The notes under the pieces were generated by a model. It made no database searches, was not told where the DNA came from, and saw nothing but the letters and a program-made list of their open reading frames with translations. 64,000 nucleotides of DNA from Candidatus Rhodoluna planktonica (lineage in GTDB: Bacteria; Actinomycetota; Actinomycetes; Actinomycetales; Microbacteriaceae). The stretch covers positions 1,178,001 through 1,242,000 of the forward strand of contig NZ_CP015208.1 in NCBI RefSeq assembly GCF_001854225.1. The letters run 5' to 3'. Shown piece after piece: positions 45,034 through 47,611 of this stretch. The position numbers and the translations under genes are program-made. Within the stretch, counting starts at the first letter, position 1. The number at the start of each line of letters is the position of its first letter.

Positions 45034-45669
45034 ATGCGAGTTCACATTGCCGACCATCCTCTAATTACTCACAAACTCAGCGTGCTGCGTGATAAAAACA
45101 CACCATCGCCGGTTTTTCGCCAGTTGGTTGAAGAGTTGGTTACCTTGCTGGCCTATGAAGCAACGCGCGACGTGAGGGTCGAGAAAATCGAAGTTGAGAC
45201 ACCGGTCGCAAAGACTTTTGGTGTGCAGTTGGCGCATCCTCGACCGATTATCGTGCCGATTCTACGAGCAGGTTTAGGCATGCTTGAAGGTATGACCAAA
45301 TTGCTGCCTACCGCAGAGGTTGGTTTTTTGGGCATCAAGCGAGATGAAGAAACTTTGCAGCCTTTCACCTATGCAAACCGCCTACCGGATGATTTGACTG
45401 GACGCCAGGTGTACATCATCGACCCGATGTTGGCCACTGGTGGCACCTTGATTGATTCGATCGATTATGTGTTCGAGCGCGGGGCGACTGATGTGACTGC
45501 GGTTTGCCTGATTGGTTCTCCGGAAGGTTTGGCCGCGGTCGAGGCGCACGTTGCCGGTCGCGCAGTGAAGTTGGTGCTTGGAGCACTGGATGAGAAGCTG
45601 AACGAAGTTGGGTACATCGTGCCCGGACTGGGCGATGCGGGCGATCGTCTTTACGGGACTGCGCAGTAA
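45034..45669 (+). CDS. upp: Uracil phosphoribosyltransferase
   Basis: Pyrimidine salvage: uracil plus PRPP to UMP. 211 residues, normal length, with start [20 protein letters not shown], the PRPP loop [20 protein letters not shown] and uracil-binding [17 protein letters not shown] at the end. No ribosome site precedes the ATG. Confidence 0.97.
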
Positions 45670-45776: not shown

Positions 45777-46721
45777 TTACCTAAGTATTTCGGTGTTAAG
45801 TAGGTATTTCTCAAGAGTTTTTGCCAACTCAAAACTTTTATTTTTACCTAAGTAAAACTCAACCTTTCTGATGAAGTGTGCTTCGTGAAGCCGCATCAAT
45901 ATTTCGCAAGTAAACCAGAGTCGACTCCCCCGAAGCTCACAAGAAAAATCTCTGGATTGAGCCAAGGTTTCAAGCCAGCGTCGGGCTGTCGCCTGGGTCA
46001 CACGCATCGATTGAGCGAGCAGGGGAATCGTCGTTGTTGGGTGGACACAAAAATACCTAAGTAATTCCTGTCGGCGTTTAGCTGGTACCGCTAACAAAAC
46101 TGAATTGGTCGCCCTAAGTGCCGTGAGCCCTGCATCTCTTGTGTCTGATAGCTGAGAAGGATTACCTAGGTATTTTTTAGCTCGGCGAAGTGCTGCCGCT
46201 TCCCGGTATCCGTAGGGATCAATTGAAGAGCCACCTGATGAACCCCGAACTCTACCTAAGAAAAATAGCCAGGTTTTTACCGAGGTAATCGGTAAATAGG
46301 TAGGTAATCCTTCGGTTTGAAAGAGGTAGTCTCTCGAAGGGCCAGAAACAAAACCGCAGACCTCCGACGCCAATCGATCCGACTCACCAACTAAGAGTTC
46401 CAAAATTTCCGCATCAATCATCGGCTGAGTGGACCCAGGGGAAATAGGTTGAGTGGACCCAGGGGAAATCGACTGAGTGGACCCAGAGGAAATCGACTGA
46501 GTGGACCCGGGGGAAACAGGTTCCGTTGACCTGGAAAAGAAAGTGTTCATACATCGAGAGTGAGGCCGTACAAAAATCCACGAATGGCAATCTGAAAATT
46601 TGTGGAAAACCATTCCCAGCGGGACCCCGGAATATTTGACAAAAAGAAAAACACAACGTAATTTTTTACACATGTCTAACAGCAACTTTGAAATCACTGC
46701 AGTCCGCGAAGTTTCGCGCAC
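45777..46721 (-). CDS. Unrecognised HTH-containing protein with N-terminal octapeptide repeats
   Basis: Up to 314 residues; family not recognised. A central segment MIDAEILELLVGESDRLASE and a C-terminal helix-turn-helix region (IPLLAQSMRVTQATARRWLETLAQ, then a short wing-like stretch) recall the helical parts and winged helix that accompany Fic-type proteins, but no Fic HPFxxGN motif is present. Residues about 68-100 are four copies of an eight-residue unit (SPGSTQPI type). The start is uncertain: GTG 46721, ATG 46548 and ATG near 46420 are in frame and none has a clear ribosome site. The gene has lower GC and poorer codon use than its neighbours and is full of a recurring decamer, so it looks accessory. 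Confidence 0.6.
   Translation of the reverse strand: MRETSRTAVISKLLLDMCKKLRCVFLFVKYSGVPLGMVFHKFSDCHSWIFVRPHSRCMNTFFSRSTEPVSPGSTQSISSGSTQSISPGSTQPISPGSTQPMIDAEILELLVGESDRLASEVCGFVSGPSRDYLFQTEGLPTYLPITSVKTWLFFLGRVRGSSGGSSIDPYGYREAAALRRAKKYLGNPSQLSDTRDAGLTALRATNSVLLAVPAKRRQELLRYFCVHPTTTIPLLAQSMRVTQATARRWLETLAQSRDFSCELRGSRLWFTCEILMRLHEAHFIRKVEFYLGKNKSFELAKTLEKYLLNTEILR
45778..46306. repeat. Eight copies of a TACCTAAGTA-like decamer inside one gene
   Basis: TACCTAAGTA occurs at 45778, 45845 and 46054, TACCTAGGTA (perfect palindrome) at 46163, and related forms at 45797 (TAAGTAGGTA), 46253 (TACCTAAGAA), 46278 (TACCGAGGTA) and 46297 (TAGGTAGGTA). They fall in all three codon phases of the gene, so the protein sequence does not explain them. 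Confidence 0.8.
46429..46548. repeat. 24-bp tandem repeats, four good copies plus one degenerate
   Basis: Units starting GTGGACCCAGGGGAAAT at 46429, 46453, 46477 and 46501, with a decayed fifth from 46525. The unit length is a multiple of three and encodes the octapeptide repeats of the HTH protein, so copy number can change without frameshift. Confidence 0.95.
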
Positions 46722-46933
46722 CCAGATGATGGCTGTTATGTGTATGTGTATGCGAATGTGTCGCTAACCCACGGAACAGCATTTTCCGATGGAGCCGGCG
46801 ATCGAAAGATCCCGGCTTTTTTGTTAGCCGACACAGCCCCCACCCGACAAACACTCGTGATTCGAGTACTCGGTTCGAGTTCAGAACAACTCCAAAAAAT
46901 CGCAAACACAACACACATCAAGGACTTTGAAAA
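46722..46933 (+). other. Gene-free stretch ahead of the winged-helix gene, possible small RNA or leader
   Basis: 212 bases without a convincing gene. It contains alternating TGTATGTGTATG sequence at 46739-46760, then a strong plus-strand terminator (next entry) with no open frame ending before it. A short transcribed RNA or attenuated leader is the simplest explanation, unproven. Confidence 0.45.
46793..46822 (+). terminator. Intrinsic terminator with GAAA tetraloop, no upstream gene assigned
   Basis: AGCCGG-c-GATC, tetraloop GAAA, GATC-CCGGCT, then TTTTT. Ten paired bases with one bulge. It lies about 110 bases before the winged-helix gene at 46934. Confidence 0.88.
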
Positions 46934-47611
46934 ATGGCAATCGCACACCTAAACAGCTACCGCACCAACACCGCAATCAAAACCGCACCAACCGCTCCTA
47001 CCGCTGCGGCAATCAAAGCAGTCCCAGCCGAAACCGAAGCCCGCGGATTCGCACTATACGTCGGAATCGACGAGGCAACCGCGGCAGCAGCCGGCGTCTC
47101 ACTCACCGAATTGGTAAGCGCACTTCGCAAAACCGTTGCCGAACTTGTGCCACAGGCAGCCAACGAAACCTACGCTGCTGTTGCCCTAGCTCCAAAAAAT
47201 GCTGGCGGCCGCAACATCGACGCCACCCGCCTAGCCCTGCGTGACCCACGCGCACTCGACGAGTTGACCATCAAAAACCAAGGCGACAGCAACCAGCCAG
47301 CTGAAGGCGTAACCGTTGACCTGCTACGCAAGCGCGTTTACGTGAACGGCGAAAACGCCGACTTCACCGCAAAAGAATTTGAACTGCTTTCCTACCTGAT
47401 CGAAAACACTGGCGAAACCATCAGCCGCCAAGAAATCGTCGAAACCGTTTGGGCCGACGAAGCCGCAGAAACCACCCCTAACGAGCGCACCATCGACGTA
47501 CACATCCGCCGTTTGCGTTCAAAAATTGCCGGCTACGAAGACATCATTCGCACCGTGCGCGGTGGCGGCTACCGTTTCGACTCGCACCCAGACGTGCTTA
47601 TCGAGGCATAA
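46934..47611 (+). CDS. OmpR-type winged-helix protein without receiver domain
   Basis: 225 residues. The C-terminal 90 residues form a Trans_reg_C winged helix: VTVDLLRKRVYVNGENADFT, KEFELLSYLIENTGETISRQ, RTIDVHIRRLRSKI and the wing RTVRGGGYRF. The N-terminal half has no phosphorylatable receiver; it is Ala-rich and contains a small alpha/beta-like stretch GFALYVGIDEATAAAAGVSL. Known actinobacterial proteins of this layout act as DNA-binding regulators, targets unknown. AAGGA precedes the ATG by ten bases. It is followed closely by the P-loop kinase gene. Confidence 0.9.
   Translation: MAIAHLNSYRTNTAIKTAPTAPTAAAIKAVPAETEARGFALYVGIDEATAAAAGVSLTELVSALRKTVAELVPQAANETYAAVALAPKNAGGRNIDATRLALRDPRALDELTIKNQGDSNQPAEGVTVDLLRKRVYVNGENADFTAKEFELLSYLIENTGETISRQEIVETVWADEAAETTPNERTIDVHIRRLRSKIAGYEDIIRTVRGGGYRFDSHPDVLIEA

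Follow-up and report, generated by a model that had tools for sequence, protein, structure and literature searches.

A stretch of 64 kb (the window; bases 1178001–1242000 of the home genome, a single contig of 1.42 Mb from a freshwater actinobacterium, genus Rhodoluna, Microbacteriaceae) was analysed for repeats and for the genes around them. On its minus strand lies a gene for an orphan winged helix-turn-helix (wHTH) protein of 257 amino acids (45777–46550; ATG at 46550, stop codon at 45777–45779), located between upp (45034–45669, plus strand; uracil phosphoribosyltransferase by similarity) and the gene of a winged-helix (Trans_reg_C) regulator (46934–47611, plus strand). A 24-bp tandem repeat near the start of the gene (46422–46529, minus strand, 4.5 copies) encodes, in frame, the eight residues STQPISPG; this repeat was not seen in the homologues. 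It was read as coding because the differences between the copies are largely synonymous or conservative, and the start at ATG 46421, which would have made the repeats upstream operators, was dropped. Upstream of the winged-helix regulator there is a short open reading frame (MSNSNFEITAVREVSRTQMMAVMCMCMRMCR; 46672–46767, plus strand); its end, rich in Met, Cys and Arg (MCMRMCR), is found again ahead of this regulator gene in many congeneric genomes, and the frame looks like a leader peptide.

The region upstream of the wHTH gene contains a DnaA-box-like element, TTTTCCACA (46601–46609, minus strand), 59 bp from the start codon, which is the sole TTWTCCACA in the 64-kb window. Eight homologues conserve a word of this type (0–1 mismatch) at 58–60 bp before the start (for the G006 gene the position assumes a GTG start). 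We preferred ATG 46550 for this reason; a longer reading frame of 314 amino acids from GTG 46721 probably does not represent the real start and was dropped, as the conserved element fits ATG 46550. In these genomes, oriC and the region upstream of dnaA also have TTWTCCACA words, and the natural reading of the upstream sequence is that of a DnaA box. Control of the gene by DnaA would follow from this reading. A separate group of four DnaA-box words (TTATCCACA/TTGTCCACA class) was noticed in genome G000 at about 1.8–2.0 kb, between rplI-like and dnaB-like genes and away from the dnaA–dnaN boxes.

The C-terminal wHTH of the protein (45906–46070, minus strand) and the C-terminal domain of SoFic-like Fic proteins are homologous. 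The alignment of the homologues (A5), compared by hhalign with the Fic proteins of Rhodoluna, gave a probability of 97 and an E-value of 7e-11 over 89 columns; the best PDB profile matches include SoFic chains, weakly, and Pfam detects the domain weakly. The first-pass annotation had described a C-terminal HTH of no known family; the HTH stands, but the lack of a known family holds only in part. Neither the protein nor its homologues have the Fic catalytic core and its motif HPFx(D/N)GNGR (HPFxxGNGR), and the N-terminal two thirds gave no family match. Neither Pfam nor NCBIfam returned a match to a Rep domain or family, to a ParB-type domain or CTPase motifs, or to TetR (the HTH sits C-terminally), and no transposase domain was detected. 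A single-sequence AlphaFold model (pLDDT 36) was useless. Judged from these comparisons, the protein appears to be a winged helix of Fic type that lacks the catalytic core of Fic proteins.

Among 67 congeneric genomes, a divergent wHTH gene between upp and the winged-helix regulator was found in seven (G000, G005, G006, G007, G017, G059 and G084), in either orientation, with G084 the most divergent. The homologue in G028 adjoins upp (the stretch that was read covers that side of the locus), G002 has a remnant, and G010 carries a copy at another locus; in many other congeneric genomes the place between upp and the regulator is a short gap or is taken by other genes. The G010 homologue keeps the DnaA-box-like element 58 bp upstream, where most of the 18 surrounding bases match the window. 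The gene is fast-evolving; the homologues are 15–27% identical to the window protein. Searches turned up no genome closely related to the home genome. Viral contigs, plasmids, phages and GTDB contigs yielded no relatives of the protein.

Within the wHTH gene, 531 bp (45777–46307) contain eight sites with at most three mismatches from TTACCTAGGTAA; the remaining 63.5 kb of the window contains 25. Exact TACCTAAGTA occurs three times (45778, 45845 and 46054), perfect TACCTAGGTA once (46163), and near copies are present at 45796, 46252, 46277 and 46296. With their flanking bases the sites are TTACCTAAGTAT (45777–45788, plus strand), which spans the stop codon; ATACCTACTTAA (45796–45807, minus strand), which is weak; TTACCTAAGTAA (45844–45855, plus strand), which lies inside TTTTACCTAAGTAAAA; ATACCTAAGTAA (46053–46064, plus strand); TTACCTAGGTAT (46162–46173, plus strand), the perfect decamer palindrome; CTACCTAAGAAA (46252–46263, plus strand; weak); TTACCGAGGTAA (46277–46288, plus strand); and TTACCTACCTAT (46296–46307, minus strand; weak). 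All three codon phases are occupied. Both this and the presence of a perfect palindrome had been pointed out before and were confirmed, but the description of the repeats as iteron-like was not: the copies are palindromes, and their start-to-start spacings (19, 48, 209, 109, 90, 25 and 19 bp) are irregular.

The density of the copies was compared with two kinds of randomized sequence. Allowing one mismatch, TACCTAAGTA gives six matches (five sites) in the entire 64 kb, all within the array; 0.73 are expected from shuffled sequence, and none of 100 shuffles reached six. Permutation of the synonymous codons of the gene gave a mean of 1.27 matches to the 10-mer at one mismatch (six observed; 0 of 3000 permutations as many) and a mean of 1.20 matches to the 12-mer at up to two mismatches (five observed; 0 of 3000), and at three mismatches the eight observed sites were reached in 3 of 3000. 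The clustering of decamer copies in the HTH gene that the first-pass annotation had reported is therefore real, being beyond both shuffles and codon permutation, and the array is under selection at the level of DNA.

The decamer palindrome extends to a 14-mer, WWTACCTAGGTAWW, which is present 14 times in the home chromosome and no more than twice in any of 66 congeneric genomes; a control word occurs 0 times in the home chromosome. The concentration of the decamer in one gene, complete within the window at one mismatch, thus does not hold for the chromosome with its 14 dispersed 14-mers. TACCTAGGTA is found at 15 places in the home chromosome, 11 of them inside other genes, where all 11 are read in one frame as Y-L-G-K/N/I. 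The codon pair TAC-CTA is strongly favoured in this genome (15 of 29 TAC-Leu pairs in the coding sequences of the window), as is CTA-GGT, and the in-frame YLG sites can in part be put down to this preference. That codon usage alone explains the dispersed sites was considered and overruled by the genus-wide count of the 14-mer and by the flanking bases. In all 11 coding sites the codons immediately before and after both end in A or T, which has a probability of about 8e-9 by local composition; at other TAC-CTA pairs in the window the preceding codon nearly always ends in C or G. All four flanking bases are A or T in 14 of 15 home copies of TACCTAGGTA versus 4 of 40 copies in relatives (p about 1e-8), a test that was conceived after the pattern had been seen and was then checked on the other genomes. 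The dispersed WWTACCTAGGTAWW palindromes reflect DNA-level selection in this genome. Codon usage and chance, given next to no probability, draw on the favoured TAC-CTA and CTA-GGT pairs, but are exceeded by codon permutation, flank control and genus-wide count, and are refuted for the array.

The positions of the sites were related to the origin. In the home genome dnaA lies at 1409.3–1410.7 kb, and clusters of several copies are found at 63.3, 1224, 1244.8 and 1392 kb. The bias towards the origin is weak (17 loci, mean distance to dnaA 0.37 of the half-chromosome, p about 0.03), and none of the listed home sites comes closer than about 100 kb to the point opposite oriC.

Another palindrome surrounds the homologous gene in G059 and G017. 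There, on either side of the gene, lies an arm of an imperfect inverted repeat, about 150 bp long, that holds TTTTGC-N4-GCAAAA or a near copy; a third copy ends some 16 bp before the ATG, placing the palindrome 16–32 bp upstream. De novo clustering of palindromes recovers the same sets, above shuffles. TTTTGC-NTAN-GCAAAA and the home TTTTACCTAGGTAAAA are one symmetric base apart (TTTTGC/GCAAAA versus TTTTAC/GTAAAA). In both genomes, where dnaA is at coordinate 0, no other site with at most one mismatch to WTTTTGCNTANGCAAAAW is more than 160 kb away from dnaA; an arc so short has a p of 0.007 to 0.0003 for five to seven random loci, and since G059 and G017 are related this clustering counts as one observation, not two. 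Two other loci of G059/G017, at about 48/45 kb and 1284.8/1246.8 kb, have inverted-repeat elements that are related to the repeats flanking the HTH gene and carry no gene. The homologous loci of G005, G007 and G028 have a flanking pair of palindromes and no more, and palindrome clustering found no array at those of G006 and G084. Together with the 0 of 3000 codon permutations and the flank control, the analogous but different palindromes around homologous genes support selection on the DNA, as argued earlier, and a link to the HTH protein.

We consider it somewhat better than an even chance that the wHTH protein reads the palindromes, limits its own expression and occupies chromosomal sites in a manner resembling RefZ or Noc. 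The array would then be a cluster of binding sites for the protein of the same gene; that this protein is the reader is suggested by the density of sites in its own gene and by the parallel in G059 and G017. The protein probably binds a palindrome of 14–16 bp (WWTACCTAGGTAWW in the home genome) as a dimer, and binding within its own gene may repress or limit expression. About 14 further strong sites on the chromosome, genic as well as intergenic, would be occupied regardless of the identity of the gene, and the protein would mark or organise the chromosome in step with replication, a role suggested by the DnaA-box-like element in the promoter and by the sites that centre on the origin in the two relatives. 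The specificity predicted from the palindromes is that the home protein binds WWTACCTAGGTAWW and not TTTTGCNTANGCAAAA, with the reverse for the G017 protein. In its fullest form, that of a Fic-derived, DnaA-controlled chromosome-marking protein whose palindromic sites lie in and between the genes of the streamlined chromosome of a freshwater actinobacterium, and whose specificity has been replaced together with its sites from species to species within the genus, the proposal is tentative and on balance doubtful.

The alternative that survives best, which we regard as rather improbable yet worth weighing, is that the HTH protein is simply an autoregulatory transcription factor controlling a small regulon, that the sites in coding sequences are decoys or of no importance, and that the protein has no chromosomal role. 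A palindrome 16–32 bp upstream of the ATG, as in G059 and G017, is in the usual position for a repressor, and some home sites are clustered upstream of or between genes (at 63.3 kb, before an iolE-like gene, and at 1244.8 kb). Set against this are the 11 of 15 sites that lie inside unrelated genes, the clustering of the relatives' sites round dnaA, and the genes next to the sites, which differ between the home genome and G059/G017. A regulon common to the two lineages was looked for and rejected, as the site neighbours seen do not correspond; this difference speaks for positions rather than for a regulon.

It is unlikely that the palindromes are read by another protein, with the HTH gene merely one of its targets. 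The link of the HTH protein to the site comes from sequence comparison, and G006 and G084 keep the homologous gene without an evident array, both of which would suit such a reader. The densest array by far, however, is in the HTH gene, and in G059 and G017 a different palindrome built to the same plan lies around the homologous gene.

A MITE-like inverted-repeat mobile element that carries the HTH gene, the palindromes being parts of its terminal repeats, is very unlikely. It would agree with the imperfect inverted repeats of about 150 bp around the G059/G017 gene and the related gene-less arms at two loci, with an orientation of the gene that varies among genomes, and with the other locus in G010. 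Yet a transposase domain is missing, long inverted repeats are present in G059 and G017 only and not at the home gene, and the sites in coding sequences are bare palindromes rather than elements. A plasmid-type replication initiator with iterons can practically be dismissed: repeats in the gene of a DNA-binding protein and a DnaA-box-like word upstream recall one, but the locus is chromosomal and syntenic, plasmids and phages gave no match, no Rep family was found, and the sites combine irregular spacing with palindromic symmetry. Of the two roles that the first-pass annotation had associated with such repeats, autoregulation by the HTH protein remains plausible, while that of replication initiator, given the syntenic chromosomal locus and the lack of a Rep domain, is unsupported.

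If the favoured reading, occupation of many chromosomal sites by the wHTH protein, is correct, abundant freshwater actinobacteria would have a small system of sites across the chromosome that is based on a winged helix derived from Fic and not on ParB or TetR folds. Selection would maintain these sites within coding sequences, and from one species to the next they would change along with the protein. The genus could then serve for studying how the specificity of a DNA-binding protein and its many scattered sites change jointly; genetic tools for Rhodoluna exist (PMC11577799).

Of the known systems compared, RefZ and Noc appear to be the closest functional models, and neither is a family relative. 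RefZ of Bacillus has five near-palindromic RBM sites on both arms around oriC, the positions of which are conserved across the genus (PMC6657595). The sites of G017 and G059 are similarly placed around the origin, whereas those of the home genome are so only weakly; moreover, RefZ belongs to the TetR family and is found in sporulating bacteria, whereas the present protein is an actinobacterial wHTH of the SoFic type, with palindromes that differ between species and form an array within the gene itself. Noc of Bacillus and Staphylococcus is described as having specific NBS sites scattered round the chromosome (PMC4331003) and as a CTPase of the ParB family (PMC8429893, PMC7383237). The present system is like Noc in its scattered sites, of which none of those listed for the home genome is nearer than about 100 kb to the point opposite oriC, and differs from it in that the protein is about 250 amino acids long and without a ParB match. 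The home site WWTACCTAGGTAWW is a different word from parS or NBS. With the SoFic-like Fic adenylyltransferases (Pfam SoFic-like_C) the protein shares the C-terminal winged helix but not the Fic core. Finally, autoregulated HTH repressors with operator arrays also have several operators in or around their own gene; the difference is that the putative operators described here are found chromosome-wide, inside coding sequences as well.
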